NCBI GenBank assembly: GCA_033439265.1
Contig: JAVTVX010000035.1
Span: 10,318,001-10,382,000 of the forward strand
DNA length: 64,000 nucleotides
Direction of reading: 5' to 3'
From: Dillenia suffruticosa
Taxonomy: Eukaryota; Streptophyta; Magnoliopsida; Dilleniales; Dilleniaceae
Shown here: in pieces, positions 1,426 to 64,000 of the stretch
Layout of the letters: every line of letters starts with the position of its first letter
Numbering within the stretch: position 1 is the first letter of the stretch
Notes under the pieces: generated by a model
Seen by the model: only the letters and a program-made list of their open reading frames with translations
The model's database searches: none
Told to the model about the DNA's origin: nothing
Position numbers and translations under genes: made by a program

Positions 1426-2253
1426 CCATTGAAGGTAAGATAGTCAAATGACGATAAAGTCAATCCCCCTACTATTGTGAACAGATATAATCATTGAAAC
1501 AAATAAAATCATTACTGCTATGTTCTTTCCCTTTCATATCAATGCAAACATCATGAAAGAAAGAAGGTCCTACTACTTGGCAGGCCCTTCCCCTCTACTA
1601 TTGTGAACAGATACTATTGTGAAAATGTCCTTTTTCACCTCTTTCATGTTAAACCACAGATAAAAGGTTTTGAAAGTTTCATTTTTGGTTTTACTCACTG
1701 TTTTCTTCACCTCTTTCTTGGCTACAATATACTTCTCTAAATTTTCCTCAATTATACTAGTGTAGAGCAATTTATAGACAATTCTTTTCACCATTACTTT
1801 CTCTTGTATTTCTTTTTTTCACCACCAAATTCTTTATTTAGAGGTACACGACATTTTTCTCAGCAAATACACTATTAACTATAGTTTTCACACGAAACGT
1901 TATCTCTTCTCATGCCATATTAATGTCACTATGTACTTCTCTTAAAGCTTGTTCTCCTGCTCTCACCATAAAATTGTTCAATTTTTCATCGTTTAAATTC
2001 CACCACGTAATCCTAAGGGTTGTGCATACTTTCTTTCAATGAATACTATGCTTGAAGAAAGTTCTTGGGTATTTTCTTGGGCTTTTGTTTACTTATGATG
2101 AATGCGAAAATGCAAAATAAAAACCAAGTAAGACAAACCTAATGACAAGCCCAATCCAACAACGGAAGCAAAAAAGCTTTGCTAGGGAAGCGCTACAACC
2201 CAACATAAGTCTTTTGACATCATTGAAAAGTTTGAGAAAGAGTTGAGGTGCAA

Positions 2254-2327
2254 TGTCTGAGTCCAGGTTCGAACCGGGGATCTCTAGTGTATAAGATTAG
2301 CATGATAACCAACTGCACCACCCAGAC
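2254..2327 (-). pseudogene. tRNA-Val-derived copy 1, anticodon UAU
   Basis: Full length at 74 nt with A and B boxes (GGTTCGAACC). The loop reads CTTATAC, so the anticodon is TAU rather than CAC, and the anticodon stem has an A.C mismatch. The usual TTTT just after the tRNA is missing. A drifted edge copy, unlikely to work as a valine tRNA. Confidence 0.8.
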
Positions 2328-3122
2328 CACTGAAGTTAAAGCAATCAAAGGGGGATAAATTCAATTCCCCTACTATGACAAACAGATACAATCATTGAAG
2401 CAAATAAAATTTTTACTATTATGTTCTTTCCCTTTCATATCAATGCAAATAGTATGAAAGAAAGAAGGTCCTTCTACTTGTCAGGCCATTTCCCCATACT
2501 ATTGTGAACAGATACTATTCTGAAAATGTCCCTTTCTACCTATTTCGTGTTAAGCCATAGATAAAAGCTTTTTAAAGTTTCATTTTTGGTTTCACTTACT
2601 GCTCACTTTACCTCCTTCTTGATTACAATGTACTTCTCTAAATTTTTCTTGTTTGCACTAGTGTAGAAAAAATCATAAACAGTACTTTTCGTCTTTACTT
2701 TCTCATGTATTTCTTTTTTCCACCACCAAGATTTTTTATTTAGAGGTACATGTACTTTTTCTTACCAAATCCACTCTTAGCCAGCCATATTAAGGTCAAT
2801 CTATATTTCTCCTAAGACTTATTCTCCTACCCTCTCCTTAAAATTGTTTGATGTTTCATCATTTAAATTCCACCACTTAATCCTAAGGGTTGTGCACACT
2901 TTCCTTCTATGAATACTATGCTTGAAGAAAGTTCTTGGGTCTTTTCTTGGGTTTTTGTTTTGTTATAATGAATACAAAAATGCAAAATAAAAACCAAGTA
3001 AGACGTGCCTAAGACAAGCCCAATCCAAAAACGGAAGCAAAACAGCTTTCGTAGGGAAGCGCTACGGCTGAACATAAGTCTTTTGACATCACTTAAAAGT
3101 TTGAGAAAGAGCTAAGGTAAAA

Positions 3123-3196
3123 TGTCTAAGTCCGGGTTCGAACCGAGAACCTGTAGTATGTGAGACTAGCATGATAACCAACTGCACCACCCAAAC
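3123..3196 (-). tRNA. tRNA-Val (CAC), array copy 2
   Basis: 74 nt with loop CTCACAT giving anticodon CAC, B box GGTTCGAACCC and TTTT terminator. The acceptor stem still pairs through G-U pairs (5' side GTTTGGG). The outer T-stem pair and the first anticodon-stem pair are mismatched. Confidence 0.75.
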
Positions 3197-4018
3197 CATT
3201 GAAGGTAAAATAGTCAAAGAGGGATAAATTCAATCTCCCTACAATTGTGAACAGATACAATCACTGAAGAAAAATTTTTGCTGTTATGTTCTTTCTTTTT
3301 CATATCATTGCGAACAACAAGAAAGAAAGAAGGTTCTTCTACTTGTCAAGCCATTTTCCTTTTACTATTATGAATAGATACTATTGTAAACATGTCCCTT
3401 TCCGCTTCTTTCGTGTTAAGCCATTGGAAAAAGTTTTTGAAAGTTTCATTTTTGGACTTGCTCATTGCTCACTTCACCTCTTTTTTGGCTATTACGTATT
3501 TCTCCAAATTTTTCTCTTTTTGCTAGTGTAGAGTAATTTATAGACAGTTGTTTTTGCATTTACTTTGTCTTGTATTTCTTTTTTCCACCACTAGGATTCT
3601 TTATTTAGAGGTACACATCATTTTTCTCACCAAATACACTATCATAAATAGTTTTCACATGAAACGTCATCTCTTCTCTTGCCGTATTAAGGTCACAATG
3701 TATTTCTCCTAAGGCTTCTTCTCCAACTCTCTCCATAAAATTGTTTCGTTTCTCATCGTTAGATTCCACCACTTAATTCTAAATGTTGTGCATACTTTCC
3801 TTCTATGAATACTATGCTTGAAAAAAGTTCTAGGGTATTTTCTTGGGTTTTTGTTTTGTTATGATGAATGCAAAAAAGCAAAGCAAAAACCAAGTAAGAC
3901 ATACCTAATGAAAGCCCAATCCAATAATGGAAGCAAAACAGCTTTCGCAAGGAAGCACTACAGCCCAACATAAGTCTTTTGACATCACTAAAAAGTTTGA
4001 GAAAGAGCTAAGATAAAA

Positions 4019-4079
4019 TGTCTGAGCCTGGGTTCGAACTAGAGACCTCTAATAGTGTGATAACCAACTACCACTAGAC
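4019..4079 (-). pseudogene. tRNA-Val remnant, array copy 3
   Basis: Only 61 nt: most of the anticodon arm is missing, while the T arm, part of the D arm and the terminator remain. It cannot fold as a tRNA. Confidence 0.85.
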
Positions 4080-4703
4080 CATTGAAGGTAAAACAATCAA
4101 AGCGGGAAAAATTCAATCTCTCTACTATTGTGAACAAATACAATCATTGAGGCAAATAAAATTTTTGCTGTTCTGTTCTTTCCTTTTCATATCATTGCAA
4201 ACAACATGAAAGAAGAAGGTCCTTCTACTTATCAAGCCATTGCCTTGCTACTATTGTGAATAAATACTATTGTGAACATGTCCCTTTCCCCTTCTTTCAT
4301 GTTAAGCCGTTGGTAAAAGTTTTTGAAAGTTTTATTTTTGGACCTACTCATTGCACACTTTACCTCATTCTTGGCTACTACATATTTCTCCAAATTTTTC
4401 TCTTTTTGCTAGTGTAAAGTAATTTATGACAGTTCTTTTTTCCTTTACTTTTTCTTGTATTTCTTTTTTCTACCACTAAGACTCTTTATTCAGAGGTTCA
4501 CAACATTTTTCTCACCAAATACACTGTAAACTATAGTTTTCATCTAAAACGTCATTTCTCATAATTTAAATTGTTTTGTTTCTCATCATTTAAGGTCACG
4601 ATGTATTTCTCCTAAGGCTTCTTCTCCTACACTCTCCATAAAATTGTTTCGTTTCTCATCATTTAAATTCCACCACTTAATCCTAAGGGTAGCGCTGGTA
4701 AAA

Positions 4704-4777
4704 TGTCTGAGCCCGGGTTTGAACCGGGGACCTCTAGTGTGTGAGACTAGCGTGATAACCAACTACACCACCCAGAC
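4704..4777 (-). tRNA. tRNA-Val (CAC), array copy 4, near-perfect
   Basis: One of the best copies. Acceptor GTCTGGG/CTCAGAC, anticodon stem CTAGT/ACTAG fully paired, loop CTCACAC, T stem CCCGG/CCGGG fully paired, discriminator A, and TTTT directly downstream. The B box reads GGTTCAAACCC. The unit beyond its 3' end is shortened, so the spacing to copy 3 is only 685 bp. Confidence 0.92.
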
Positions 4778-5590
4778 CATTGAAGGTAAAACAGTCAAAG
4801 GGGGTTAAGTTGATTCCCCGTACTATTTTAGAAAGATACAATCATTGAAGCAAATAAAATTTTTGCTGTTATGTTCTTTCCCTTTCGTATCATTGCGATC
4901 AACATGAAAGAAAGAAGGTCCTTCTACTTGTTACGTCATTTTACTGCAACTTTTGTGAACAGATACTATTGTGAATCTGTCCCTTTCCCCTTCTTTCGTG
5001 TTAAGCCATTGGTAAAAGTTTTGATAGTTTCATTTTTGGACTTACTCATTGCTCACTTTGCCTCTTTCTTGGCTACTACGTATTTCTCCAAATTTTTCTC
5101 TTTTTGCTAGTGTAGAGTAATTTATAAACAGTTCTTTTTGTCTTGACTTTTTCTTGTATTTCTTTTTTCCACCACTAAGATTCCCACATCATTTTTTTCA
5201 ACAAATACATTGTCAGCTATAGTTTTCACATGAAACGTCATCTTTCTCTTGCCATATTAAGGTCACCATGTATTTCTCCTAAGGCTTCTTCTCCTATACT
5301 CTCCATAAAATTGTTTGGTGTCTCATCGTTTAAATTCCACCACTCAGTCCTAAGGGTTGTGCATACATTCCTTCTGGGAATACTATGCTCGAAGAAAGTT
5401 CTTGGGTATTTTCTTTGGTTTTTGTTTGTTATGATGAATGTGAAAATGCAAAACAAAAACCAAGTAAGACATACCTAATTACAAGCCCAATCCAACAATG
5501 GAAGCAAAACACTTTCATAGGGAAGCGCTATGGCCCAACAAAAGTCTTTTGACATCACTGAGAAGTTTGAGAAAGAGCTCAGGTCAAATG

Positions 5591-6083
5591 TGTAACACCA
5601 ACAGCTCAGCGTACTCACTATTGTACTTATCTTCATTGTATATATACCATTGTTCATAAATTTACATAGAAATTTTTTCGCTAAAACCGCTTCTGAAAGT
5701 TTCGGCCTAAATCGTCAGAAATTCAAAATTTCCAAAATGACTACCAATGGTCTACAAATAATAAGGATGACTCTAGGGTATACAGAAATCTCAAATTTGA
5801 GTAGATCTTATGCCGTAGTGTTGAATCGTAAATTTTCTAAAAAAATCACTGGTAAAACCCCAACTGGGTCGAATGTGTCTCGAAAAGATTAAAAGACCAC
5901 GTTTTGAAGCGGGATAAATTAAATTAGGCATAATATAAGGTTTTGGGTCTAACTTGAAATTTTGAAAATTTTCAGCGTCAAAATGTAATTTTCATAAATC
6001 AGGGGACCTATTTGCAATTAACAAAAATAGAACTATTTGACATATGAATTCCCCCTCCCCAAAACCATGAACAGCTAAGGTGT

Positions 6084-6126
<43 letters not shown>

Positions 6127-9100
6127 ATTTATGGATTTTTGAGAAGTTAAATCCAAGGGTGGAGATTGAATTGAATTTAGATGAATTAATTTAAACCATT
6201 AGATTGAGTTAGTGAGAAACAAGACACTATTCATTGAGTTAAATGCATGGGCTTTCTTAAAACCCAACCAATGGTGAGGATTGACTTGGAATTAGATCAA
6301 AATTTGTGAGCTCTTGGATCTTGGTGGTTGGGAGACATACAATTAATGAAAGTGACATTATAGTGTAAGAAAATGTGTTTTATGTGAGAGAGAGAGAGGG
6401 AGTGACTTATTGTGACCAAAATAATCCAAAGGCTAGGAGTTGATCTTGAAAAGGTTGGATCACTAGGATTGGATAGAGCAACCAAATAAAGCAAATACTT
6501 ATGCCTTTCTCCTTCCCAAAACCATGAGACACATCCAAGGCAAAGAAGAAAGCTCTCCATTTTCTCTCAATTCTTCCATCAAAACCGTGAGCTTCAAGGT
6601 GAGAGATACAAATTTTTTTTCTACAACAACACCAAATATTTTTACATAGATCCAATCCTCACAAATCCAACTATAACATATCCAAAAATTGGAGCAAAAC
6701 GAGGAGTTTTGCATGGTGAAGATTCAAGAGAGCTTTGAGCATCACCATTGAAGAAATGTATGATTTCTTCAAACAACTCTTTGAAATTTTGATATAGATT
6801 CATTCCACTCTAACCCTAGTATAAATCTAAATTTGGAGCCAAAAGGAAAGGCCTAACATGGTGAACAATGAGGAGGCCGAAAGTTAGAAGACCATAGGAG
6901 GAGAAAGAACTTCATTCTGCCCTGTTTTCAACAGATAATTCCCCTCAGATTTGAGATATCATCTTGATAGAATCTGACCAAGTGTTAAACACAAAGTTGT
7001 AGATCTAGGTTTCATCTTTGCAATGAGATAAGAATCACCTAAATCCAATTTTTGTACCAAAAGTTACAGTAATTCTTTCGAGACTGTGCAAAGTGTTCCT
7101 CTGTTTTTGACCATATATTAGCAGAATTTTTAGTGACCAATTTTGATCCTATGCTAGACATAATTAAGAACAACTCCAAATACTAAAGTTGTAGGTCTCT
7201 ATCCCATCTTTAACCTATCCAAATTTTGCTTAAAGTAAAGTAGTATGCTAAAGGTTATATCACTTTCACTGAGACAGGACAAAGTATGAGTTTAGAACAA
7301 AATTGAGAGAAAGTTTTGAATTTCTGAAATTTTGTGCTTAGAATCAGAGTAAATGCTCAAATGAAAGTTATAGTACTGTTTCGTATCTTTCATATGGGAC
7401 AAGAATTAATCAATTTGGAGTTATATGTTAGGAGGTATGAGGAAACTACCGAAACTGTGCAAATTGAGTTAAAAAATCCGAATCAGACCAAATATAAAAT
7501 TTTATAAATTCATATAGTGAGAACCAGAAGATGAGTTAAACATAAAAAATGTTTGTAAATATCTTAGTTTTAAGTAGCAATTTGAATCACTCAATTTTGA
7601 GTTATATTAAAAATGTTATAGCATTTTTCCTAAAACTGCGCAAGTACAAAAATTTAGAGTTAGAAAATTTATGAATGTTTGGGTTTGAACCACTAAGGCA
7701 AATTGTATTGGGTCCAAGTCCATTTAGAACATTAGAGTCCAATAACCCAAAGCCTATGATGAAAGATGTGGCCCAAAAATATCTAAAGCCAATCAAAATT
7801 GTGAAAGTCTTGTAAAGTAATAAAGAATTTACACATGTGTATATTGTTGTTTTAGGGGTAGACTATTATTCTACACATGAGGGACGACTTGGTGGAGCTC
7901 GAGATTCATAGGGGAGTGGTGTACCCTCCCCATATGTGTGAGTGAGATTTTGACGCTGTGTTTTTTATTGAACAAAAATCCATATTTTATACCTTTTCAA
8001 ATGACATATTTAATAACATGTGTGAAATCATGATATTTGATTTATATTTTATAATACTTATCTTTGTGATCATGAATGTCTCAAATGATTTATTTAGATG
8101 ATATGTATCCATGAATTTCGTTGAAACGACATCATGCCACTTTTTGAGAAACTTGATAGAATTATATGCTTCCATTGCATTAGCACACAAATTTGAAATT
8201 GTTTAATTGAAATGTGTGGGCCGGATACCTACTTATGATGTGATGATGTGATGATATCCTTGGTGGACTTGATGTGATGATGTTCTTGATGGACTACTAT
8301 AGCTACGAAGGGCATTCGTAGAGGCACACATTGTATCCGGATACACTTCTATAGGAGGTATCCCCAAACATAATATGTATAGTTACGACCGGTTGAACCA
8401 AATCGGGGAGGACATGTGTAAAGCCATCATCTAGCACTGGGCAGAATTCTATACATAGTTGATTATATATATGTGCATAGACACGAGCTAGCCGGTTGAA
8501 CTGTAAGGGGAGGATATGTGTGACGTCACTGTCTAGCACTTGGTGAACCCCGTGGCCAACATTGGGGTAGAGATCTAAATGTGTCTATACTTGCATATAA
8601 AAAACCCAAATGCGTCCATCATTGGTCGTGGTAGGCTCTTACTAGGAATATTTTATTGGCAAACTCTAAATGATTTGGAAATGTAAATAGATGCATTTGT
8701 TGATATTATGATGTATGATATATGGTCATCTGATTTATGGAAATGTCAAGCTTGATTTTGATATCATCATGTTTTAAAGCATGCTTTGACACTCTGTGTT
8801 CACACACGGTATTAAGAACATAATGTCGATCCCCTCATTCACTGAGTATTTTTCCATAATACACACCCCTCACCTTTTCATGATGACAAATATAGTTTTG
8901 GCAGGGAGACGTGTCGAGAGATTTTCGACACACTTGACATCCCTTTGGAGATGACGAGTGTTGGGTATGGTACCAATCATTCTTTCGTAATGAAGTTGGA
9001 CATTGTATATATATTTTAGGTCCATAGAGTGATCATTATACATTTTATGGGATTACTGTAAATATGTTATTGTAAATGTAAATTGAAACTCTCAAATTTG

Positions 9101-9296
9101 TTATATATTCATGCAATGAAACAAAATGTTGCATTTTAATTTTTATTTTACTTGGGAAATGTTATTTGAGGAAAAACAAGTTTTAATAGGTATGGACGAA
9201 TGTCTTGCGTTATCCCAGTATATGAGAAGATGTTGCCCGTATGCCAAGATAATACGGCGGTTGTTGCATGCTCGACTCGAGGATCGGGGTGTGACA
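5591..9296 (+). repeat. 5' LTR of the plus-strand gypsy relic (3.7 kb)
   Basis: It begins TGTAACACC and ends GGTGTGACA, the usual TG...CA ends, and is followed by a primer site. It holds a (GA)n tract near 6,084 and a roughly 100-bp imperfect tandem duplication near 8,386-8,540 (two copies of an accggttgaac block). Its start matches, after divergence, the LTR start of the minus-strand relic at 29,394. No gene is visible in it. Confidence 0.85.
6084..6125. repeat. (GA)n microsatellite
   Basis: About 40 bp of nearly uninterrupted GA dinucleotides inside the gypsy LTR. Confidence 0.95.
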
Positions 9297-9302
9297 ATTC
9301 TA

Positions 9303-9316
9303 TTGATATTAGAGCT
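9303..9316 (+). other. Primer binding site of the plus-strand gypsy relic
   Basis: The sequence ttgatattagagct is a drifted form of TGGTATCAGAGC, complementary to the 3' end of initiator tRNA-Met. It lies six bases after the LTR end, as expected for plant Ty3/gypsy elements. Confidence 0.75.
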
Positions 9317-9583
9317 CTAGGTTAAGAGCTATGTTTTATGAAAAGAGTTTTAAAATATTCCCAAGTATGTTTCAAAACTCCTTAATGCATATGAGAGTTT
9401 CTTTACAGTCATAAGATCCCAGTACATGGTTTTAGACATATGAGTTCTTTTATTTTTTTAGGGGGTTAGATATAATTCGTATCTAACCTAGCATATCATT
9501 GTCATCGCTTCTTAAACCGATAACTTCATGCATTTTAGAGGGTTAGTTATCATGCCTAATAATAATTATTCATTTACCGAACC

Positions 9584-10368
9584 ATGACGACTAGGCGGGG
9601 CACTAGATTTGTACCCCCTAAGCCACCTAAAGTGCACGAGAATACATCCACATCACGTCTGCCCGCTCTAGCGCCTTCTCAGCCGACTACTACAGCCGCA
9701 GTTCCACCACCACCACTCGATGCATGGAGGCAGGTGTATGAGTGGTACAGTAAACTTTGAGTAGGGACTACGTCCCCAGGGGTTTGGAGTACCAGGCCCT
9801 AGTGCTACAAGTCAAACTACAGTTCAGCGGCACCCTCCTTGCCATAGATGGAGTAGGCACCATCCTCAGGGAACTTGCAGGGTACCTATCATGTGCTTCT
9901 AGTATGGGAAGCCAAGACATATCAGGAGTTTATGTCCTGATTTAGGACTTGAAGGTCAGACGACTTCGAGTCATCCGAGTGGTCCGCAAGTAGGACAGTA
10001 GGGAGAACCTGTGCATTCGAGTCACACAACTCTACGGACGATAACTAGGAGCAACACTGTACCCGATCCTTCACGATAGCAGCGAAGGGCACTGGCCTGC
10101 GTATATGCTATGACGCAGACTAATGTTGTGGTAGATGTCTTGAGTCAGAAATCATTATCTTCTCCACAGACGACAGAGAATGCTTATCTCTCTTGCTTGG
10201 TGGGACTCCGTACATTGGGAGTCAGCTTGGCTAGTGATGATCGATGAGCACTACTAGCCCGATTTGAGGTGAGGCCGACCTTGCTCGACTGCATTAGGGA
10301 GCTCCAGGGATCAGATAAGGAGCTCCAATGTATTCTTGATAGGATCCGCAGGGGTGATAGCGAAGGTA
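9584..10368 (+). pseudogene. gag-pol fragments of the plus-strand gypsy relic
   Basis: The gag-type start MTTRRGTRFVPPKPPKV opens at 9,584. Pol-like pieces follow towards the right end, covering the RNase H tail and the integrase N-terminal side. The stretch is far too short for a whole gag-pol, so this is a fossil with most of its coding part gone. Confidence 0.7.
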
Positions 10369-10815
10369 GTTATTTTTCTTGTATTTTTTTCCCACCACTA
10401 AGATTCCCACATCATTTTTCTCACCAAATACACAATCAGCGATAGTTTTCACATGAAACGTCATCTCTCCTCATGCCATATTAAGGTCACGATGTAGTTC
10501 TCTAAAGGCCTCTTCTCCGATTCTCTCCATAAAATTGTTTAGTTTCTCATCGTTTAAATTCCACCACTTAATCCTAAGGGTTGTGCATACTTTCCTTCTA
10601 TGAATACTATGCTTGAAGAAAGTTCTTGCGTAATTTCTTGGGTTTTTGTTTTATTGTGATGAATGCAAAAATGCAAAAGAAAAACCAAGTAAGACATAAC
10701 TAATAACAAGCCTAATCCAACGACAGAAGCAAAACAACTTTCGTAGGGAAGCGCTACGACCCAACATAAGTCTTTTGAAATCACTGAGAAGTTTGAGAAA
10801 CAGCTCAGGTTTAGC

Positions 10816-10889
10816 CATCTGAGCCCAGGTTCGAACCGGGGACCTCTAGAGTGTGAGACTAGTGTGATAACCAACTACACCATCCAGAC
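10816..10889 (-). tRNA. tRNA-Val (CAC), array copy 5, weak
   Basis: 74 nt, CAC in loop CTCACAC, B box GGTTCGAACC intact. The 3' end reads CTCAGATG, so the acceptor end and discriminator are changed. One anticodon-stem pair is U.U, and there is no T-run terminator close by. Probably not functional. Confidence 0.65.
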
Positions 10890-11703
10890 CATTAAAGGAA
10901 AAACTATCTAAGGGGGATAAATTCAATCTCCCTACTGTTGTGAATAGATACAATCATTGAAGCAAATAAAATTTTTTCTGTTATGTTCTTTCCTTTTCAT
11001 ATCAGTTCGAACAATATAAAAGAAAGAATGTTCTTCTACTTGTCAAGCCATTTCCCCGCTACTATTGTAAACAAATACTATTGTGAACATGTCCCTTTCA
11101 CCTTCTTTCTTGTTAATCCGTTAGTAAAATTTTTTGATAGTTTCATTTTTGAACTTACTCGTTGCTCACTTCGCCTCTTCCTTGGCTACTACGTATTTCT
11201 CCAAAATTTTCTCTTTTTGCTAATGTAGAGTAATTTATAGACAATTCTCTTTGTCTTTACTTTTTCTTGTATATCTTTTTCCACCACTAACATTCTTTAC
11301 TTAGAGGTACACATCATTTTTTCTCACCAAATACACTATCAGCGATAGTTTTCACATGAAACATCATCTCTTCTCATGTTGTATTAAGGTCACAATGTAG
11401 TTCTCTAAAGGCCTCTTCTCTGACTCTCTCCATAAAATTGTTTGGTTTCTCATCGTTTAAATTCCACCACTTAATCCTAAGGGTTGTGCATACTTTCCTT
11501 CTATGAATACTATACTTGAAGAAAGTTCTTGGGTTGTTTTGTTATGATGAATGCGAAAATGCAAAACAAAAACCAAGTAAGACATACCTAATAACAAGCC
11601 CAATCCAACAACGGAAGCAAAACATCTTTCATAGGGAAGCACTATGGCCCAACATAAGTCTTTTGATATCACTAAGAAGTTTGAGAAAGAGCTGAGGTAA
11701 AAC

Positions 11704-11777
11704 TGTCTGAGGCCGAGTTCGAACCGGGGATCTCTAGTATGTGAGACTAGCTTGATAACCAACTACACCACCCAGAC
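11704..11777 (-). tRNA. tRNA-Val (CAC), array copy 6
   Basis: Acceptor and anticodon stems pair, the loop is CTCACAT (CAC), the discriminator is A, and TTTT lies one base further down than usual. The T stem is weakened (CCCGG/CTCGG). Confidence 0.8.
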
Positions 11778-12603
11778 CATTGAAGGAAAAACAGTTAAAT
11801 GGGGATAAATTCAATCTCCATACTGTTGAGAATAGATACAATCATTCAAGCAAATAAAATTTTTACTGTCATGTTCTTTCCTTTTCATATCAATTCGAAC
11901 TATATGAAAGAGAGAAGGTCCTTCTACTTGTCAAGCCATTTCCCCTCTACTATTGTGAATATATACGATTGAGAACATGTCCATTTCCCCAACTTTCGTG
12001 TTAAGCCATTGATAAAAGTTTTTGAAAGTTTAATTTGGGACTTACTCATTGTTCACATCGCCTCTTTCTTAGCTACTATGTATTTCTCCAATTTTTTCTC
12101 TTTTTGCGAGTGTAGACTAATTTATAGACAGTTCTTTTCACCTTTACTTTTTCTTGCACTTCTTTTTCCCACCATTAAGATTCTTTATTTAGAGGTACAC
12201 GTCATTTTTCATACTAAATACAATGTCAGCAATAGTTTCACATGAAACGTCATCTCTTCTCTTGCCATATTAAGGTTACGATATATTTCTCCTAAGGCTT
12301 CTTCTCCTACTCTCTCCATAAAAATGTTTTGTTTCTCATCGTTTAAATTCCACCACTTAATCCTAAGAGTTGTGCATACTTTCCTTCTATGAATACCATG
12401 CTTGAAGAAAGTTCTTGCGTATTTTCTTGGGTTTTTGTTTTGTTATGATAAATGCGAAAATGCAAAACAAAAACCAAGTAAGACATACCTAATGTCACGC
12501 CCAATCCAACAAAGGAAGCAAAACGGCTTTCATAGGGAAGCGCTATGGCCCAACATAAGTCTTTTGAAATCACCGAGAAGTTTTGGAAAGATTTCAGGTA
12601 AAA

Positions 12604-12677
12604 TGTCTAAGCCCAGGTTCGAACCGGGGACCTCTAGTGTATGAGACTAGCGTGATAGCAACCTACACCACCCATAC
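12604..12677 (-). tRNA. tRNA-Val-derived copy 7, anticodon CAU
   Basis: The body is a valine tRNA with good boxes and a TTTT terminator, but the loop CTCATAC gives anticodon CAU (Met). The 5' end reads GTATGGG, leaving one acceptor pair mismatched. Confidence 0.75.
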
Positions 12678-19868: not shown

Positions 19869-19879
19869 CAAATTCACAT

Positions 19880-23927: not shown

Positions 23928-23931
23928 ATTT

Positions 23932-53120: not shown

Positions 53121-53124
53121 AAAA
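53121..53124 (-). terminator. Pol III terminator TTTT (representative)
   Basis: The minus strand reads ACA-TTTT-ACC directly after the discriminator base. The same arrangement is found after most copies. Confidence 0.85.
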
Positions 53125-53198
53125 TGTCTGAGCCCGGATTCGAACCGGGGACCTATAGTGTGTGAGACTAGCGTGATAACCAACTACACCACCCAGAC
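53125..53198 (-). tRNA. tRNA-Val (CAC), array copy 44, consensus copy
   Basis: Matches the right-block consensus. Acceptor GTCTGGG/CTCAGAC, A box TGGTGTAGTTGG, anticodon CAC with U33, T arm CCCGG-TTCGAAT-CCGGG, discriminator A and TTTT at 53,121-53,124. Its only defect is a C.U first anticodon-stem pair, shared by most right-block copies. Nuclear plant tRNA-Val(CAC) in protein synthesis reads GUG codons. Whether this copy is transcribed is unknown. Confidence 0.92.
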
Positions 53199-53235
53199 CA
53201 TTGAAGGAAAAACAATCACAAGAGGATAAATTCGA
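53199..53235 (-). promoter_or_regulatory. Upstream tRNA-gene elements (representative)
   Basis: On the minus strand a CAA lies at -5 to -3 of the mature 5' end (53,201-53,203) and a TATA-like AATTTAT at about -34 to -28 (53,226-53,232). Both features are known to support plant Pol III tRNA transcription. They recur in nearly every unit. Confidence 0.7.
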
Positions 53236-54023
53236 TATCCCTACTATTCAAAACTGATACAATCCTTGAAGTAAATAAAATTTTTCTTGTTATGTTCTTT
53301 CTTTTCATATGAGTTCAAACAACATAAAAGAAAGAAGGCCCTTCTACTTGTCATGCCATTTCCCCACTACAATTGTGAACAAATACTATTGTCAACTTGT
53401 CCCTTTCCCATTCTTTCTTGTTAAGCCATTAGTGAAAGTTTTTCATTGTTTCATTTTTGGACTTACTCATTGCTCACTTCCCCTCTTTCTTAGCTTCTAC
53501 ATATTTCTCCAAATTTTTCTTTTTTTGCTTCTGTTGAGTATTTAACAGACAATTCTTTATGCCTTTACATTTACTTGTATATCTTTTTCCGCCAGTATGT
53601 TTCTTTATTACAGGTACACATCATTTTTATCACCAAATACACTATCAACATTAGTTTTCACATGAAACGTCATCTCTTCTCTTGTCGTATTCAGGTCATG
53701 ATGTACTTCTCCTAAGGCCTCTTCTCCTACTCCTTCCATAAAATCGTTTCGTTTCCCAATGTTTAAATTCTACCACTTAATCCAAAGGGTTGTTCATAAT
53801 TGCCTTCTATTAATATTATGCTTGAAGAAAGTTCTTGGGCAATTTCTTGGGTTTTTATTTACTTATGATGGTTGCGAAAATGCAAAACAAAAACCAAGTA
53901 AAACATACATAATAACAAGCCCAATCCAACAACGGAAGCAAAACAGCTTTCGTAGGGAAGCGCTACGACCCAACATAAGTCTTTTGAAATCAGTCAGAAG
54001 TTTTAGAAAGGGCCCAGGTAAAA

Positions 54024-54097
54024 TGTCTGAGCCCGGATTCGAACCGGAGACCTATAGTGTGTTAGACTAGCGTGATAACCAACTACACCACCCAGAC
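54024..54097 (-). tRNA. tRNA-Val, anticodon AAC, array copy 45
   Basis: Loop CTAACAC gives AAC, a valine anticodon that would read GUU/GUC if A34 is edited to inosine. Acceptor intact, TTTT present, one T-stem change. Its near-duplicate is copy 52. Confidence 0.85.
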
Positions 54098-54924
54098 CAT
54101 TAAAGGAAAAATTGTCACAGGAGGATAAATACGATCTCCCTATTGTTCAAAACTGATACAATCCTTGAAGAAAATAAAATTTTTATTGTTATGTTCTTTC
54201 CTTTTCGAATCAATTCGGACAACATGATAGAAAGAAGGTCCTTCTACTTGTCAAGCCATTTCCCCGCTACTATTGTGTACAGATAATATTGTGAAGTTGT
54301 CCATTTCCCCTTCTTTCTTGTTAAGCAATTAGTAAAAGTTTTTTATTCTTTCATTTTTTTACTTACTCATTGCTCACTTCCTCTCTTTCTTGGCTTCAAC
54401 GTATTTCTCCAAATTTTTCTTTTTTTGCTACTGTTAAGTAATTTATAGACAATTCTTTTTGCTTTTACATTTTCTTGTATTTCTTTTTCCACAAGTAAGA
54501 TTCTTTATTTACAGGTACACGTCATTTTTATCACCAAATACATGACCAACATTAGTTTTCACATGAAACGTCATCTCTTCTCTTCCCGTATTCAGGTCAC
54601 GATGTGCTTCTCCTAAGGCTGCTTCTCCTACTCTCTCCCTAAAATCGTTTCGTTTCTCAACGTTTAAATTCTACCACTTAATTGTAAGGGTTGTTCATAA
54701 TTTCCTTCTATAAATACTATGCTTGAAGAAAGCTCTTGGGTAATTTCTTGGTTTTTTATTTACTTATGATGATTGCGAAAATGCAGAAGAAAAACCAACT
54801 AAGACATACTTAGTAACAAGCCCTATCCAACAACGGAAGCAAAACAGTTTTCGTAGGGAAGCGCTACGACCCAACTTAAGTCTTTTGAAATCAATCAGAA
54901 GTTTGTGAAAGAGCTCAGGTAAAA

Positions 54925-54998
54925 TGTCTGAGCCCGGATTCGAACCGGGGACCTATAGTGTGTGAGACTAGCGTAATAACCAACTACACCACCCAGAC
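54925..54998 (-). tRNA. tRNA-Val (CAC), array copy 46
   Basis: Consensus-quality, CAC, B box GGTTCGAATCC, TTTT. D-stem change to TTATTAC (a G-U pair), also seen in copies 47, 53 and 55. Confidence 0.88.
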
Positions 54999-55824
54999 CA
55001 TTGAAGGAAAAACAATCACAAGAGGATAAATTCGATATCCCAACTATTCAAAACTGATACAATCCTTGAAGTAAATAATATTTTTCTTGTTATGTTCTTT
55101 CTTTTCGTATGAGTTCAAACAACATGAAAGAAAGAAGGTCCTTCTACTTGTCATGCCATTTCCCCACTACAATTGTGAACAAATACTATTGTCAACTTGT
55201 CCCTTTCCCATTCTTTCTTGTTAAGCCATTAGTAAAAGTTTTTCATTGTTTCATATTTGGACTTACTTATTGCTCACTTCCCCTCTTTCTTGGCTTGTAC
55301 ATATTTCTTCAAATTTTTCTTTTTTTGCTTCTGTTTAGTAATTTATAGACAATTCTTTTTGCCTTTACATTTTCTTGTTTTTCTTTTTCCACCAGTATGA
55401 TTCTTTATTTACAGGTACACATCATTTTTATCACCAAATACACTGTCAACATTAGTTTTCACATGAAACGTCATCTCTTATCTTGCCGTATTCAGGTCAT
55501 GATGTACTTCTCCTAAGGCCTCTTCTCCTGCTCCTTCCATAAAATCGTTTCGTTTCTCAACGTTTAAATTCTATCACTTAATCGTAAGGGTTGTTCATAA
55601 TTTCCTTCTATGAATACTATGCTTGAAGAAAGTTCTTGGGCAATTTCTTGGGTTTTTATTTACTTATAATGGTTGCGAAAATGCAAAACAAAAACCAAGT
55701 AAGACATTCATAATAACAAGCCCAATCGAACAACGGAAGCAAAACAGCTTTCGAAGGGAAGCACTACGACCCAACAAAAGTCTTTTTAAATCACTCAGAG
55801 GTTTGAGAAAGAGCCCAAGTAAAA

Positions 55825-55898
55825 TGTCTAAGCCCGGATTCGAACCGGGGACCTATAGTGTACGAGACTAGCGTAATAACCAACTACTCCACCCAGAC
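55825..55898 (-). tRNA. tRNA-Val-derived copy 47, anticodon CGU
   Basis: Loop CTCGTAC gives CGU (Thr type) in an otherwise good tRNA body with TTTT. A box TGGAGTAGTTGG. Confidence 0.75.
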
Positions 55899-56727
55899 CA
55901 TTAAAGGAAAAATTGTCACAGGCGGATAAATTCGATCTCCCTATTGTTCAAAACTGATATAATCCTTGAACTAAATAAAATTTTTGTTGTTTTGTTCTTT
56001 CCTTTTCGAATCAATTTGAACAACATGAAAGAAAGAAGGTCCTTCTACTTGTCAAGCCATTTCCCCGCTACTATTGTGTACAGATAATATTGTGAAGTTG
56101 TCTCTTTCCCTTTCTTTCTTGTTAAACCATTAGAAAAAGTTTTTTATTGTTTCATTTTTGGACTCACTCATTGCTCACTTCCTCTCTTTCTTGGCTTAAA
56201 CGTATTTCTCCAAATTTTTCTTTTTTTGCTACTGTTGAGTAATTTATAGACAATTCTTTTTGCCTGTACATTTTCTTGTATTTCTTTTTCCACGAGTAAG
56301 ATTCTTTATTTACAGGTACAGGTTATTTTTATCAACGAAAACACTACCAACAGTAGTTTTTCACATGAAACGTCATCTCTTCCCTTCCTGTATTCAGGTC
56401 ACGATGTACTTCTCCTAAGGCCTCTTCCCCTACTCTCTCCTTAAAATCGTTTCATTTCACAACGTTTAAATTCTGCCACTTAATTCTAAGTGTTGTTCAT
56501 AATTTCCTTCTATGAATATTATGCTTGAAGAAAGTTCCTGGGTAATTTCTTGGGTTTTTATTTACTTATGATGATTGCGAAAATGCAAAACAAGAACCAA
56601 GTAAGACATACCTAATAACAAGCCCATTCGAACATCGGAAGCAAAACAACTTCCGTAGGGAAGCGCTACGACCCAACATAAGCCTTTTGAAATCACTTAG
56701 AAGTTTTGAGAAAGGGCTTAGGTAAAA

Positions 56728-56801
56728 TGTCTGAGCTCGGATTCGAACCGGGGACCTATAGCGTGTGCGACTAGCATGATAACCAACTACACCACCCAAA
56801 C
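56728..56801 (-). tRNA. tRNA-Val (CAC), array copy 48, G at position 33
   Basis: Loop CGCACAC, 5' GTTTGGG: the copy 41/43/54 subtype, here with a better T arm. TTTT present. Confidence 0.72.
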
Positions 56802-57628
56802 CATTGAAGGAAAAATTGTCTCACGTGGATAAATTCGATCTCCCTATTGTTCAAAACTGATACATTCCTTGAAGTAAATAAAATTTTTGTTGTTATGTTC
56901 TTTCCTTTTCGTATCAGTTCGAACAACAAGAAAGAATGAAAGTCCTTCTACTTGTAAAGCCATTTGCCTCCTACTATTGTGAACAGATAATATTGTGAAG
57001 TTGTCCCTTTCCCCTTCTTCCTTGTTAAGCCATTAGTAAAAGTTTTTAACTGTTTCATTTTTGGACTAAGTCGTTGCTCACTATCCCTCTTTCTTGGCTT
57101 CAACGTATTTCTCCAAATTTTTCTTTTCTTGCTACTATTGAGTAATTTATAGAAAATTCTTTTTGCCTTTACATTTTCTTGTATTTCTTTTTCCACAAGT
57201 AAGATTATTTATTTACAGGTACAGGTCATTTTTATCAGCAAATACACTACCAACAGTAGTTTTCACATGAAACGTCATCTCTTCTCTTCCCGTATTCGGG
57301 TCACGATGTGCTTCTCCTAAGGCTACTTCTCCTACTCTCTCCATAAAATCGTTTCGTTTCTCAACGTTTAAATTCTACCACTTAATCGTAAGGGTTGTTC
57401 ATAATTTCCTTCTATGAATATTATGCTTGAAGAAAGCTCTTGGGTAATTTCTTGGTTTTTTATTTACTTATGATGATTGCGAAAATGCAAAACAAAAACC
57501 AAGTAAGTCATACTTAATAACAAGCCCAATACAACAACGTAAGCAAAACAGTTTTCGTAGGGACGCGCTACGACCCAACATAAGTCTTTTGAAATCACTC
57601 AGAAGTTTGAGAAAGAGCCTAGGTAAAA

Positions 57629-57702
57629 TGTCTGAGCCCGGATTCGAACCGGGGACCTATAGTGTGTGAGACTAGCGTGATAACCAACTACACCACCCAG
57701 AC
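57629..57702 (-). tRNA. tRNA-Val (CAC), array copy 49, consensus copy
   Basis: Same sequence as copy 44 by eye over the 74 nt, with TTTT. Confidence 0.92.
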
Positions 57703-58526
57703 CATTGAAGGAAAAACAATCACAGGAGGATAAATTCGATGTCCCTACTATTCAAAATTGATACAATCCTTGAAGTAAATAAAATTTTTCTTGTTATCTT
57801 CTTTGTTTTCATATCAGTTCAAACAACATGAAAGAAAGAAGGCCCTTCTACTTGTCATGCCATTTCCCCACTACAATTGTGAACAAATACTATTGTCAAC
57901 TTGTCCCTTTCCCCTTTTTTCTTGTTAAGCCATTAGTAAATGTTTTTCATTGTTTCATTTTTGGACTTACTCATTGCTCACTTCCCCTCTTTCTGGGCTT
58001 CTACATATTTCTCCAAATTTTTCTTTTTTTTACTTCTGTTAGTAATTTATAGACAATTATTTTTGCCTTTACATTTTCTTGTATTTCTTTTTCCATCAGT
58101 ATGATTCTTTATTTACAGGTACACGTCATTTTTTCACAAAATACACTATCAACGTTAGTTTTCACATGAAACGCCATCTCTTCTCTTGCCGTATTCAGGT
58201 CACGAGGTACTTCACCTTAGGCCTCTTCTCTTACTCTCTCCATAAAATCGTTTCGTTTCTCAACGTTTAAATTCTACCACTTAATCCAAAGTGTTGTTCA
58301 TAATTTCCTTCTATGAATACAATGCTTGAAGAAAGTTCTTGGGTTATTTCTTGGGTTTTTATTTACTTATGATGGTTACGAAAATGCAAAACAAAAACGA
58401 AGTAAGACATACATAATAACAAGCCCAATCCAACAACGACGCAAAACAGCTTTTGTAGGGAAGCGCTACGACCCAACATTAGTCTTTTGAAATCACTCAG
58501 AAGTTTAAGATAGAGCACACGTAAAT

Positions 58527-58600
58527 TGTCTTAGCCGGGATTCGAACCGGGGACCAATAGTGTGTGAGACTAGCATGATAACCAACTACACCACCCAGAC
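58527..58600 (-). tRNA. tRNA-Val (CAC), array copy 50
   Basis: CAC with a good B box. The 3' acceptor strand is changed (CCGGCTAAGACA), the variable loop is TGGTC and only TTT follows. Confidence 0.75.
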
Positions 58601-59426
58601 CATTGAAGGAAAAATTGTCACAAGTGGATAAATTTGATCTCCCTATTGTTCAAAACTGATACAATCCTTGAAGTAAATAAAATTTTTGTTGTTATGTTCT
58701 TTCCTTTTCGTATCAGCTCGAACAACATGAAAGAAAGAAGGTCCTTCTACATGTCAAGCCATTTCCCCACTACTATTGCGAATAGATAAAATTGTAAAGT
58801 TGTCCCTTTCCCCTTCTCTCTTGTTAAGCCATTAGTAAATGTTTTTAATTGTTTCATTTTGGACTTACTCGTTGCTCCCTTCCCCTCTTTCTTGGCTTCA
58901 AAGTATTTCTCCAAATTTTTCTTTTTTTGCCACTGTTGAGTAATTTATAGACAGTTCTTTTTGCCTTTATATTTTCTTGTATTTCTTTTTCCACAAGTAA
59001 CATTTTTTATTTACAGGTACAGGTCATTTTTATCACCAAATACACTACCAACATTAGTTTTCACATGAAACGTCATCTCTTCTCTTCTCGTATTCAGGTC
59101 ACGATGTACTTCTCCTAAGGCTGCTTCTCCTACTCTCTCCATAAAATCGTTTCGTTTCTCAACGTTTAAATTCTTCCACTTAATCCTAAGAGTTGTTCAT
59201 AATTTCCTTCTATAAATACTATGCTTGAAGAAAGTTCTTGGGTAATTTCTTGGTTTTTTATTTACTTATGATGATTGCGAAAATGCAGAAGAAAAACCAA
59301 CTAAGACATACTTAATAACAAGCCCAATCCAACAACGGAAGCAAAACAATTTTCGTAGGGAAGCGCTACGACCCAACATAAGTCTTTTGAAATCAATCAG
59401 AAGTTTGAGAAAGAGCTCAGGTAAAA

Positions 59427-59500
59427 TGTCTGAGCCCGGATTCGAACCGGGGACCTATAGTGTGTGAGACTAGCGTGATAACCAACTACACCACCCAGAC
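59427..59500 (-). tRNA. tRNA-Val (CAC), array copy 51, consensus copy
   Basis: Identical by eye to copy 44, which lies 6,302 bp to the left in a duplicated block. TTTT present. Confidence 0.92.
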
Positions 59501-60325
59501 CATTGAAGGAAAAACAATCACAGGAGGATACATTCGATATCCCTACTATTCAAAACTGATACAATCCTTGAAGTAAGTAAAATTTTTCTTGTTATGTTCT
59601 TTCTTTTCATATGAGTTCAAACAACATAAAAGAAAGAAGGCCCTTCTACTTGTCATGCCATTTCCCCACTACAATTGTGAACAAATACTATTGTCAACTT
59701 GTCCCTTTCCCCTTCTTTCTTGTTAAGCCATTAGTAAAAGTTTTTCATTGTTTCATTTTTGGACTTACTCATTGCTCACTTCCCCTCTTTCTTGGCTTCT
59801 ACATATTTCTCCAAATTTTTCTTTTTTTGCTTCTGTTGAGTATTTAACAGACAATTCTTTATGCCTTTACATTTACTTGTATATCTTTTTCCGCCAGTAT
59901 GCTTCTTTATTACAGGTACACATCATTTTTATCACCAAATACACTATCAACATTAGTTTTCACATGAAACGTCATCTCTTCTCTTGTCGTATTCAGGTCA
60001 CGATGTACTTCTCCTAAGGCCTCTTCTCCTACTCCTTCCATAAAATCGTTTCGTTTCCCAACGTTTAAATTCTACCACTTAATCCAAAGGGTTGTTCATA
60101 ATTGCCTTCTATGAATATTATGCTTGAAGAAAGTTCTTGGGCAATTTCTTGGGTTTTTATTTATTTATGATGGTTGCGAAAATGCAAAACAAAAACCAAG
60201 TAAAACATACATAATAACAAGCCCAATCCAACAACGGAAGCGAAACAGCTTTCGTAGGGAAGCGCTACGACCCAACATAAGTCTTTTGAAATCACTCAGA
60301 AGTTTGAGAAAGGGCCCAGGTAAAA

Positions 60326-60399
60326 TGTCTGAGCCCGGATTCAAACCGGAGACCTATAGTGTGTTAGACTAGCGTGATAACCAACTACACCACCCAGAC
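60326..60399 (-). tRNA. tRNA-Val, anticodon AAC, array copy 52
   Basis: Loop CTAACAC (AAC), duplicate of copy 45 at 6,302 bp distance, differing in the T loop (TTTGAAT). TTTT present. Confidence 0.85.
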
Positions 60400-61226
60400 C
60401 ATTAAAGGAAAAATTGTCACAGGTGGATAAATACGATCTCCCTATTGTTCAAAACTGATACATTCCTTGAAGTAAATAAAATTTTTGTTGTTATGTTCTT
60501 TCCTTTTCGTATCAATTCGAACAACATGAAAGAATGAAAGTCCGTCTACTTGTCAAGCCATTTCCCTCCTACTATTGTGAACAGATAATATTGTGAAGTT
60601 GTCCCTTTCCCCTTCTTTCTTGTTAAGCCATTAGTAAAAGTTTTTAACTGTTTCATTTTTGGACTTAGTCGTTGCTCACTTCCCCTCTTTCTTGGCTTCA
60701 ACGTATTTCTCCAAATTTTTCTTTTCTTGCTACTGTTGAGTAATTTATAGAAAATTCTTTATGCCTTTACATTTTCTTGTATTTCTTTTTCCACAAGTAA
60801 CATTCTTTATTTAGAGGTACACGTCATTTTTATCACCAAATACACTACCAACATTAGTTTTCACATGAAACGTCATCTCTTCTCTTCCCGTATTCGGGTC
60901 ACGATGTGCTTCTCCTAAGGCTACTTCTCCTACTCTCTCCATAAAATCGTTTCGTTTCTCCACGTTTAAATTCTACCACTTAATCGTAAGGGTTGTTCAT
61001 AATTCCCTTCTATGAATACTATGCTTGAAGAAAGCTCTTGGGTAATTTCTTGGTTTTTTATTTACTTATGATGATTGCGAAAATGCAGAAGAAAAACCAA
61101 CTAAGACATACTTAATAACAAGCCCAATCCAACAACGGAAGCAAAACAGTTTTCGTAGGGAAGCGCTACGACCCAACTTAAGTCTTTTGAAATCAATCAG
61201 AAGTTTGAGAAAGAGCTCAGGTAAAA

Positions 61227-61300
61227 TGTCTGAGCCCGGATTCGAACCGGGGACCTCTAGTGTGTGAGACTAGCGTAATAACAAACTACACCACCCAGAC
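61227..61300 (-). tRNA. tRNA-Val (CAC), array copy 53
   Basis: CAC with a fully paired anticodon stem (ACTAG restored), good B box and TTTT. The A box has one change (TAGTTTGTTATTAC). Confidence 0.88.
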
Positions 61301-62123
61301 CATTGAAGGAAAAACAATCACAAGAGGATAAATTCGATATCCCAACTATTCAAAACTGATACAATCCTTGAAGTAAATAAAATTTTTCTTCTTATGTTCT
61401 TTCTTTTCGTATGAGTTCAAACAACATGAAAGAAAGAAGGCCCTTCTACTTGTCATGCCATTTCCACACTACAATTGTGAACAAATACATTGTCAACTTG
61501 TCCCTTTCCCCTTCTTTCTTGTTAAGCCATTACTAAAAGTTTTTCATTGTTTCATTTTTGGACTTACTCATTGCTCACTTCCTCTCTTTCTTGGCTTCAA
61601 CGTATTTCTCCAAATTTTTCTTTTTTTGCTTCTGTTGAGTAATTTATAAACAATTCTTTTTGCCTATACATTTTCTTGTTTTTCTTTTTCCACGAGTAAG
61701 AATCTTTATTTACAGGTATAGGTAATTTTTATCAACGAAAACACTACCAACAGTAGTTTTCACATGAAACGTCATCTCTTCCCTTCTTGTATTCAGATCA
61801 CGATGTACTTCTCCTAAGGCCTCTTCCCCTACTCTCTCCTTAAAATAGTTTCATTTCACAACGTTTAAATTCTGCCACTTAATTCTAAGTGTTGTTCTTA
61901 ATTTCCTTCTATGAATACTATGCTTGAAGAAAGTTCCTGGGTAATTTCTTGGGTTTTTATTTACTTATGATGATTGCGAAAATGCAAAACAAGAACCAAG
62001 TAAGACATACCTAATAACAAGCCCAATCGAACATCGGAAGCAAAACATTCGTAGGGAAGCGCTACAACCCAACATAAGCCTTTTGAAATCACTCAAAAGT
62101 TTTGAGAAAGGGCTTAGGTAAAA

Positions 62124-62197
62124 TGTCTGAGCTCGGATTCGAACCAGGGACCTATAGTGTGTGCGACTAGCATGATAACCAACTACACCACCCAAAC
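62124..62197 (-). tRNA. tRNA-Val (CAC), array copy 54, G at position 33
   Basis: Loop CGCACAC, 5' GTTTGGG, 3' side of the copy 41/43/48 subtype. TTTT present. Confidence 0.7.
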
Positions 62198-63024
62198 CAT
62201 TGAAGGAAAAATTGTCTCACGTGGATAAATTTGATCTCCCTATTGCTCAAAACTGATACATTCCTTGAAGTAAATAAAATTTTTGTTGTTATGTTCTTTC
62301 CTTTTCGTATCAATTCGAACAACATGAAAGAATGAAAGTCCTTCTACTTGTCAAGCCATTTCCCTCCTACTATTGTGAACAGATAATATTGTGAAGTTGT
62401 CCCTTTCCCCTTCTTTCTTGTTAAGCCATTAGTAAAAGTTTTTAACTGTTTCATTTTTGGACTTAGTCGTAGCTCACTTCCCCTCTTTCTTGGCTTCAAC
62501 GTATTTCTCCAAATTTTTCTTTTCTTGCTACTGTTGAGTAATTTATAGAAAATTCTTTTTGCCTTTACATTTTCTTGTATTTCTTTTTCCACAAGTAACA
62601 TTCTTTATTTAGAGGTACACGTCATTTTTATCACCAAATACACTACCAACAGTAGTTTTCACATGAAACGTCATCTCTTCTCTTCCCGTATTCGGGTCAC
62701 GATGTGCTTCTCCTAAGGCTACTTCTCCTACTCTCTCCGTAAAATCGTTTCGTTTCTCAACGTTTAAATTCTACCACTTAATCGTAAAGGTTGTTCATAA
62801 TTTCCTTCAATGAATACTATGCTTGAAGAAAGCTCTTGGGTAATTTCTTGGTTTTTTATTTACTTATGATGATTGCGAAAATGCAGAAGAAAAACCAACT
62901 AAGACATACTTAATAACAAGCCCAATCCAACAACGGAAGCAAAACAGTTTTCATAGGGAAGCGCTACGACCCAACTTAAGTCTTTTGAAATCAATCAGAA
63001 GTTTGAGAAAGAGCTCAGGTAAAA

Positions 63025-63089
63025 TGTCTGAGCCCGGATTCGAACCGGGGACCTCTAGTGTGTGAGACTAGCGTAATAACCAACTAGAC
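63025..63089 (-). pseudogene. tRNA-Val, array copy 55, shortened
   Basis: 65 nt: good T arm, paired anticodon stem and CAC, but 9 nt between the acceptor 5' end and the D arm are missing, including part of the A box. Confidence 0.85.
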
Positions 63090-63913
63090 CATTGAAGGAA
63101 AAACAATCACAAGAGGATAAATTCGATATCCCAACTATTCAAAACTGATACAATCCTTGAAGGATATAAAATTTTTCTTGTTATGTTCTTTCTTTTCGTA
63201 TGAGTTCAAACAACATGAAAGAAAGAAGGCCCTTCTACTTGTCATGCCATTTCCCCACTATAATTGTGAACAAATACTATTGTCAACTTGTCCCTTTCCC
63301 CTTCTTTCTTGTTAAGCCATTAGTAAAAGTTTTTCATGTTTCATTTTTGGACTTACTTATTGCTTACTTCCCCTCTTTCTTGGCTTGTACATATTTCTTC
63401 AAATTTTTCTTTTTTTGCTTCTGTTTAGTAATTTATAAACAATTCTTTTTGCCTTTACATTTTCTTGTTTTTCTTTTTCCACCAGTATTATTCTTTATTT
63501 ACAGGTACACATCATTTTTATCACCAAATACACTATCAACATTAGTTTTCACATGAAACGTCATCTCTTCTCTTGCCGTATTCAGGTCACGATGTACTTC
63601 TCCTAAGGCCTCTTCTCCTACTCCTTCCACAAAATTGTTTCGTTTCTCAACGTTTAAATTCTACCACTTAATCGTAAGGGTGTTCATAATTTCCTTCTAT
63701 GAATACTATGCTTGAAGAAAGTTCTTAGGCAATTTCTTCGGTTTTTATTTACTTATGATGGTTGCGAAAATGCAAAACAAAAACCAAGTAAGACATTCAT
63801 AATAACAAGCCCAAGCCAACAACGGAAGCAAAACAGCTTTCGAAGGGAAGCGCTACGACCCAACATAAGTCTTTTGAAATCACTCAGAGGTTTGAAAAAG
63901 AGCCCAAGTAAAA

Positions 63914-63987
63914 TGTCTAAGCCCGGATTCGAACCGGGGACCTATAGTGTATGAGACTAGCGTGATAACCAACTACACCACCCAGAC
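63914..63987 (-). tRNA. tRNA-Val-derived copy 56, anticodon CAU
   Basis: Good tRNA body with B box GGTTCGAATCC and TTTT, but loop CTCATAC gives CAU. It is the last copy before the window ends, and its upstream flank runs to the edge. Confidence 0.78.
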
Positions 63988-64000
63988 CATTAAAGGAAAA

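Follow-up and report, generated by a model that had tools for sequence, protein, structure and literature searches.

What does a transfer RNA (tRNA) gene become when it is repeated dozens of times in one tandem array? We addressed this question in a window of 64,000 bases from Dillenia suffruticosa (assembly GCA_033439265.1, contig JAVTVX010000035.1, positions 10,318,001 to 10,382,000; 35.4% G+C and zero N), in which a tRNA-Val(CAC) locus recurs about once every 900 base pairs (bp). Such an array might supply valine tRNA, might decay in silence, or might be read by RNA polymerase III (Pol III) without supplying an adaptor. The joint explanation that we favor, and consider probable, is that of a decayed tRNA-Val(CAC) satellite, the core of which appears to have undergone Pol III transcription in cells leading to the germ line.

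Comparison of one unit with the window by BLAST revealed head-to-tail units of ~900 bp in a single orientation, running on the minus strand from 1418 past the right window edge (1418..64000). We then searched with nhmmer, using 42 of the 43 ARAGORN matches to make the profile, and this placed one tRNA-Val locus in each unit. At E<0.01 the minus strand carried all 56 loci found; 52 were full length or nearly so and four were truncated (4019-4071, 14394-14454, 34155-34183, and 63025-63091). ARAGORN itself reported 43 tRNA genes, on the minus strand only. With the Rfam model RF00005 we obtained 45 rows at E≤1. Of these rows, 43 scored at or above the gathering threshold of 29 bits, and 11 of the 56 nhmmer loci were without a row in this search. 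Spacing was regular: 45 of the 55 intervals between neighboring loci measured 833-949 bp, commonly 897-903 bp. A sequence-only reading of this DNA had counted 56 loci on a single strand, 52 of them full length and one per ~0.9-kb unit, and these figures were borne out. It had also allowed that covariance scoring might reject most copies; 43 of the 56 loci passed. Its proposal that a single tRNA-Val locus was amplified together with its flanks, like a satellite, is supported by BLAST, locus spacing, the unit alignment, and the unit tree: this is a long head-to-tail array built from one unit. The copies in the window are tandem and carry a full-length tRNA, with TTTT in 46 of 53, a picture to be seen against the dispersion, tail, and target duplications by which tRNA-derived short interspersed elements are recognized.

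The array has an age gradient. Alignment of 45 units, each of 820-980 bp, gave a mean pairwise difference of 12.8% (range 1.7% to 21.3%). The older part (2254..43319, minus strand) holds 33 of the 56 tRNA loci and 22 full units that differ by 14.1% on average, while a younger core (43320..64000, minus strand), recognized from the alignment and the tree, holds 23 loci in 23 full units with a mean difference of 8.7%. Within the core, two subfamilies taken from the unit tree, A and B, alternate in 18 of 22 neighbor steps (permutation p 0.004), and several core unit pairs have 100% bootstrap. A more homogeneous core together with a higher-order alternation of A and B is what satellite turnover by unequal exchange leaves. 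Adjacent units are hardly more alike than remote ones, as repeated exchange would make them. One unit, 50496, seems itself to have been exchanged: its tRNA has 8 derived changes in common with the tRNA of 52297, yet the two units belong to different subfamilies. Four core tRNAs, ending at 50496, 52297, 56801, and 62197, share the loss of U33 (T34G) as well as further tRNA changes, and they were amplified or exchanged regardless.

To be scored as canonical, a copy had to possess the CAC anticodon, all stem pairs (the shared U13:U22 excluded), and twelve invariant bases; the choice of invariant bases and the pairing scheme are general tRNA knowledge. We applied this test to 53 near-complete loci, having set aside three of the 56 that covered under 66 model positions. 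Only one passed in every respect. This sole canonical copy (4704..4777, minus strand) has TTTT and CAA, no TTTAT upstream, and the top Rfam score (62.9 bits). The CAC anticodon was kept in 39 of the 53 and lost in 14, all twelve invariant bases were kept in 20, and every stem pair in 5; when a single mispair was tolerated alongside CAC and the invariants, the number rose to 8. Four core copies are one change away from canonical if position 60 is excluded. Among the best of the core is the copy at 53125..53198 (minus strand), whose single departure, position 60 (C or T) again excluded, is a mismatch, C27:U43, in the terminal pair of the anticodon stem. The subfamily A core copy at 52224..52297 (minus strand) is an example of a degenerate one, with U33 and stem pairs lost.

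Promoter and terminator signals have fared unevenly. The sequence-only reading had credited most copies with A and B boxes, which holds for the A-box pattern (41 of 53) and fails for the strict B box, GGTTCRANNCC (20 of 53). It was right that TTTT, CAA, and a TATA-like stretch occur in most (46 of 53, 36 of 53, and, for TTTAT at about -40 to -20, 44 of 52 loci). An A box, a B box, and TTTT are jointly present in 11 of 53. As for the identity tRNA-Val(CAC), it stands for the single CAC locus from which the array came, and for those 39 copies that retain the anticodon. By sequence criteria this is not an array of functional tRNA-Val(CAC) genes. Some feature of a normal valine tRNA is missing from nearly all of them, and the copies are therefore mostly tRNA pseudogenes. 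Scan counts overstate the number of working tRNA genes, with 43 of 56 loci passing the Rfam cut-off and 1 of 53 canonical. Minimum-energy RNA folding was also tried on four copies and gave no cloverleaf in any of them; as the canonical copy was among them, folding does not discriminate and was not used.

One of the defects is old. Position 44 of 74 in the tRNA (canonical 43) is G in 12 of 16 loci left of 31 kb and T in 2, while all 14 loci at 31-44 kb and 20 of the 23 core loci have T. T at this position mispairs with C27, and the 27:43 pair is unformed in 37 of the 53 near-complete loci. The array thus grew mainly from a mildly defective copy. We take G43 as ancestral on the grounds of base pairing and of the left-end loci, and not of rooting: trees were rooted on G43 and C60 in one early analysis and on T43 and T60 in the later rate and stem/loop analyses. 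As to mechanism, a tRNA-Val(CAC) gene of the nucleus, together with ~830 bp of flanking DNA, would have been duplicated head to tail and would have grown as satellites do, by unequal exchange, a process suggested by the array, age gradient, alternation, and one exchanged unit that we observed. Most of this growth took place on a version that already bore the C27:U43 mismatch.

We next consider selection. Changes were reconstructed by parsimony on trees, and gene and flanks were compared in the same cytosine context; the best-built rate test used 38 gene-centered units and a tree made from the flanks only. In working tRNA genes, constraint is of about an order of magnitude according to PMC8113476. 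Here, gene transitions ran near the flank rate (94 versus 101.5 expected), and the observed/expected ratio (O/E) for all changes was 0.97 on terminal branches, under a filter that drops 9 of 74 gene columns. The anticodon had 9 changes versus 5.7 expected, ten invariant loop positions had 18 versus 18.6, and the B box had 29 versus 35.8. Constraint is at most weak, and there is none where decoding needs it.

The flanks carry a methylation-like spectrum. Their transition rates on terminal branches, per unit branch length, were 2.07 for CG, 1.72 for CHG, 0.57 for CHH, and 0.24 for A/T. The order CG>CHG>CHH matches that of methylation at the Arabidopsis SYY (Ser-Tyr-Tyr) tRNA cluster, as given in PMC12308677, and is an indirect sign of methylation. 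C-to-T change that peaks at CG and CHG is expected for methylated DNA of plants, and the CHG signal, the tRNA sequence, and the Copia domains described below all suggest a plant. Most likely, judging from this mutation pattern, the array lies in CG/CHG-methylated heterochromatin. Within the tRNA, position 39 (canonical 38) showed recurrent C>T in a CHH context, with 10 changes versus 2.2 expected among 55 loci. Canonical C38 is the site of tRNA methylation by Dnmt2, and the overlap is probably a coincidence.

The gene body differs from its flanks in the strand on which transitions fall. C>T and G>A were read on the RNA-like strand in two data sets, 38 units and 55 loci. In the 38 units, the 74-bp gene had 59 C>T changes versus 40.4 expected and 18 G>A versus 43.2 (log2 1.75), a skew equaled in 0 of 67 flank windows. 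Similar results were obtained with the 55 loci (C>T, 100 versus 72.6; G>A, 44 versus 78.0), with 0 of 50 flank windows as skewed. The 100 bp upstream and downstream were symmetric (0.13 and 0.07; 0.14 and -0.02), and at a resolution of 74- to 100-bp windows the skew does not extend beyond the gene. Site by site, C and G positions also differed (Mann-Whitney p 0.0006 for 19 C and 21 G sites, p 0.0005 for 21 and 23), and the asymmetry held when contexts were defined more finely (site bootstrap 0.94-2.82 and 0.74-1.65). Exchange between units could multiply a single change, and since unit 50496 is such a case we left it out and used a tree of the gene's neighborhood. The result was little altered: in 37 units, C>T was 53 versus 38.8 and G>A 17 versus 41.8 (log2 1.69, 0 of 67 windows), and in 54 loci, C>T was 95 versus 73.7 and G>A 43 versus 79.7 (log2 1.24, 0 of 50 windows).

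The skew is concentrated in the core, where C>T was 29 versus 14.6 expected and G>A 3 versus 15.5 (log2 2.99 and 2.89 in the two data sets); in the old part the counts were 30 versus 25.8 and 15 versus 27.7. Taken alone, the deficit of G>A was reached by no flank window. Counts made without a tree gave 8 of 10 settings in which no flank window was as skewed as the gene, and with near-duplicate units removed (26 left) the same was true in 3 of 3 tree-free settings.

Transcription is known to leave strand-asymmetric C>T on the non-template strand. For tRNA genes, PMC8113476 cites transcription-associated mutation, as well as a 2018 study by Thornlow on mutation in these genes. The asymmetry suggests that Pol III may have transcribed at least the core in cells reaching the germ line. 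We accordingly advance, as a possibility and tentatively, the specific proposal that a methylated, barely tRNA-coding satellite is, or until recently was, transcribed by Pol III in the germ line and bears a mutation scar as long as the gene. The RNA would be under no detectable selection at the anticodon, and a function of the array, if it has any, would lie in transcription or Pol III/TFIIIC occupancy itself and not in tRNA supply. A number of our results count against this proposal, and they are weighed here with the other explanations. Some bear on selection: the gene body as a whole changed somewhat more slowly than the flanks (137 changes versus 171.5 expected in the 38 units, O/E 0.80). 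Flank windows as slow were 0 of 59 under a strict filter, and two laxer filters gave 1 and 2 such windows out of 61. With a majority consensus and no alignment filter, the O/E of 0.68 lay below all 76 flank windows. The chief cause of the slower change in the 38 units is a scarcity of transversions in the gene (43 versus 70.0 expected). The A box (11 versus 20.0) and TTTT (2 versus 5.7) give a hint of promoter retention. Weak purifying selection on RNA structure could produce a strand skew as well, in that G>A breaks pairs and C>T leaves G-U; the fold would then matter, and not as a valine adaptor. Consistent with this, pair-breaking stem transitions numbered 27 versus 49.5 expected and pair-keeping ones 78 versus 68.7, stem transversions 49 versus 74.7, and changes in the acceptor stem 23 versus 37.3. 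Strong stem selection, which had at first seemed indicated (12 versus 27.7 expected), was mostly dropped because the same strand skew was found in loops, and it is retained only as a rival. At unpaired positions, where pairing cannot act, C>T was 37 versus 21.7 and G>A 15 versus 22.8, a skew at least as strong as in stems, and transversions were as scarce as in stems (24 versus 53.0). Purifying selection cannot lift C>T above the flank rate. Moreover, in the T-loop CpG (55 loci), C56, on which the B box and the tertiary fold depend, had 10 changes versus 3 at the tolerant G57; selection on structure predicts the reverse. Pol III transcription is favored for these reasons, namely that loops are as skewed as stems, that a C>T excess is beyond purifying selection, and that C56 changed more than G57. 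We regard selection on structure as unlikely, though a serious competitor.

Other results speak for a passive satellite, silent since its origin, in which the asymmetry is chance or an uncontrolled effect of sequence context. Anatomy, transposable element insertion, and the methylation-like spectrum would explain everything except the asymmetry, and the asymmetry itself was discovered in the course of many analyses and had not been predicted. The skew of the old part alone is unexceptional (log2 1.05 and 0.92; among flank windows, 1 of 67 and 1 of 50 were as high, with maxima of 1.17 and 1.04), and the C>T excess alone was reached by 6 of 67 and 2 of 50. Two tree-free settings with the 55 loci had flank windows as high as the gene, 12 of 50 at cap 1 and 1 of 50 at cap 2. 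When only rare variants (in ≤2 units) were counted, the 38 units gave no asymmetry (C, 11 versus 10.0; G, 12 versus 11.3) and the 55 loci a reversed one (C, 2 versus 7.6; G, 16 versus 8.9); any site changed in three or more units scores zero in this count, and the most-hit C sites are thereby dropped. Lasting silence has to contend with a skew that no flank window matched in either data set, that withstood finer contexts and the local tree, that persisted without the exchanged unit, and that stood apart from every flank window in most tree-free settings. It too seems improbable to us, about on a par with selection on structure. Of the options raised by the sequence-only reading, silence thus draws indirect support from the CG/CHG mutation pattern, and silence for the whole life of the array sits badly with the gene-body asymmetry. 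The supply of normal tRNA, by an array amplified for dosage like Arabidopsis SYY in the root cap, is disfavored and in our view very unlikely: the 43 loci above the Rfam gathering score, the 46 of 53 that keep TTTT, and the four core copies one change off canonical would suit it, but there is the single canonical copy, the loss of CAC in 14 of 53, the strict B box in 20, and an anticodon and invariant positions that change at the flank rate. Lastly, tandem arrays are hard to assemble, but an assembly artefact deserves scarcely any credence, as the 45 units differ by 12.8% on average, the closest pair differs by 1.7%, and three large interruptions fall at different unit positions.

How this decayed and possibly transcribed satellite compares with known systems was judged from excerpts of the published descriptions. 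A plant tRNA satellite is already known: tRNASAT_ZM of maize Mo17, with a 91.95-kb array on chr4L (PMC10335936). Both are plant tandem satellites of the same length class, a likeness of name and length. In a survey of 50 plant species, non-identical tRNA clusters ranged from 2 to 110 genes with neighbors within 1 kb; the same survey (PMC12652284) shows Val(AAC)-Glu-Phe units in tandem in the moss "Cpu". Our array resembles these clusters in its spacing below 1 kb, its divergent copies, and a size within their range: 52 of 55 intervals fall within 1 kb, and the longest such run comprises 40 loci (29981 to 63987). The maize tRNA-Ile stretch of 28 genes and the plant tRNA-Pro clusters described in PMC11700998 are likewise tandem and of one isoacceptor; they are defined by a density of at least 3 genes per kb, whereas here it is about 1 per 0.9 kb. 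Arabidopsis SYY (PMC12308677) shares tandem units, a core of major copies, variable edges, and pseudogene copies among good ones. It differs in having two tRNA types per unit and demonstrated expression, and 13 of its 54 clustered Tyr genes are tRNA-like versus 52 of 53 copies here that are not fully canonical, under differing criteria. The human 1q23.3 tDNA variable number tandem repeat also has tandem tRNA-bearing units, 9-43 per allele, but these are 7.3 kb long with a CTCF site, and their tRNA genes, unlike most of the unit, are conserved to mouse (PMC4041453). This repeat and the Entamoeba arrays (PMC2652664) are more distant than the plant systems. No plant valine array of such kind was named in a title or abstract opening among the literature matches listed. 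The sequence-only reading, which knew of no valine array of this size, is uncontradicted within the literature surveyed, although a plant tRNA satellite of 91.95 kb had been published. As far as that literature shows, what sets this array apart is its valine identity, its unit size, and the near-complete decay of its copies.

The three large interruptions of the array each occupy a different unit position. A Ty1/Copia-type long terminal repeat (LTR) retrotransposon lies within a unit at 19579..24205 (minus strand); it has broken open reading frames (ORFs) with Copia-type gag, integrase, and RVT_2 domains, LTRs that are 97.5% identical over 278 bp, and a possible but doubtful 5-bp target duplication. 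Observed/expected CpG is 0.24 in this element versus 0.70 at 44-64 kb. At 5596..10474 and at 26084..29442, unit similarity by BLAST ends and then resumes, indicating insertion or replacement; five ORFs from the former and one from the latter gave nothing above the curated cut-off in Pfam. The left flank outside the array (1-1417) contains several short minus-strand frames. Some of them resemble, by eye, plant mobile-domain proteins; the four frames given to Pfam had zero matches. Within the units, the single Rfam row for anything other than tRNA was to mir-4000, whose 26.1 bits fall short of the cut-off of 58, and of three stop-to-stop frames of ≥120 amino acids that overlap units, the one searched in Pfam was without a match. 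Downstream of the tRNA, a conserved motif of 26 bases (for example, 53047-53072) has 17 matches in the window by degenerate exact search and could form a small hairpin; by exact match it was absent from prokaryotic contigs in a narrower form and from viral contigs in a wider form, which says little on relatives.

Within the literature surveyed, plant tRNA satellites have so far been merely listed and not analyzed. In the present array, a Pol III gene is present side by side in dozens of copies that are nearly neutral, and the effects of mutation on a tRNA gene can therefore be told apart from those of selection. Should the asymmetry be a scar of transcription, Pol III would read heterochromatic tRNA repeats in the germ line. 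Decaying tRNA satellites would then expose the transcription-associated mutation of tRNA gene bodies that is normally hidden by selection, and heterochromatic Pol III activity would be readable from sequence alone.

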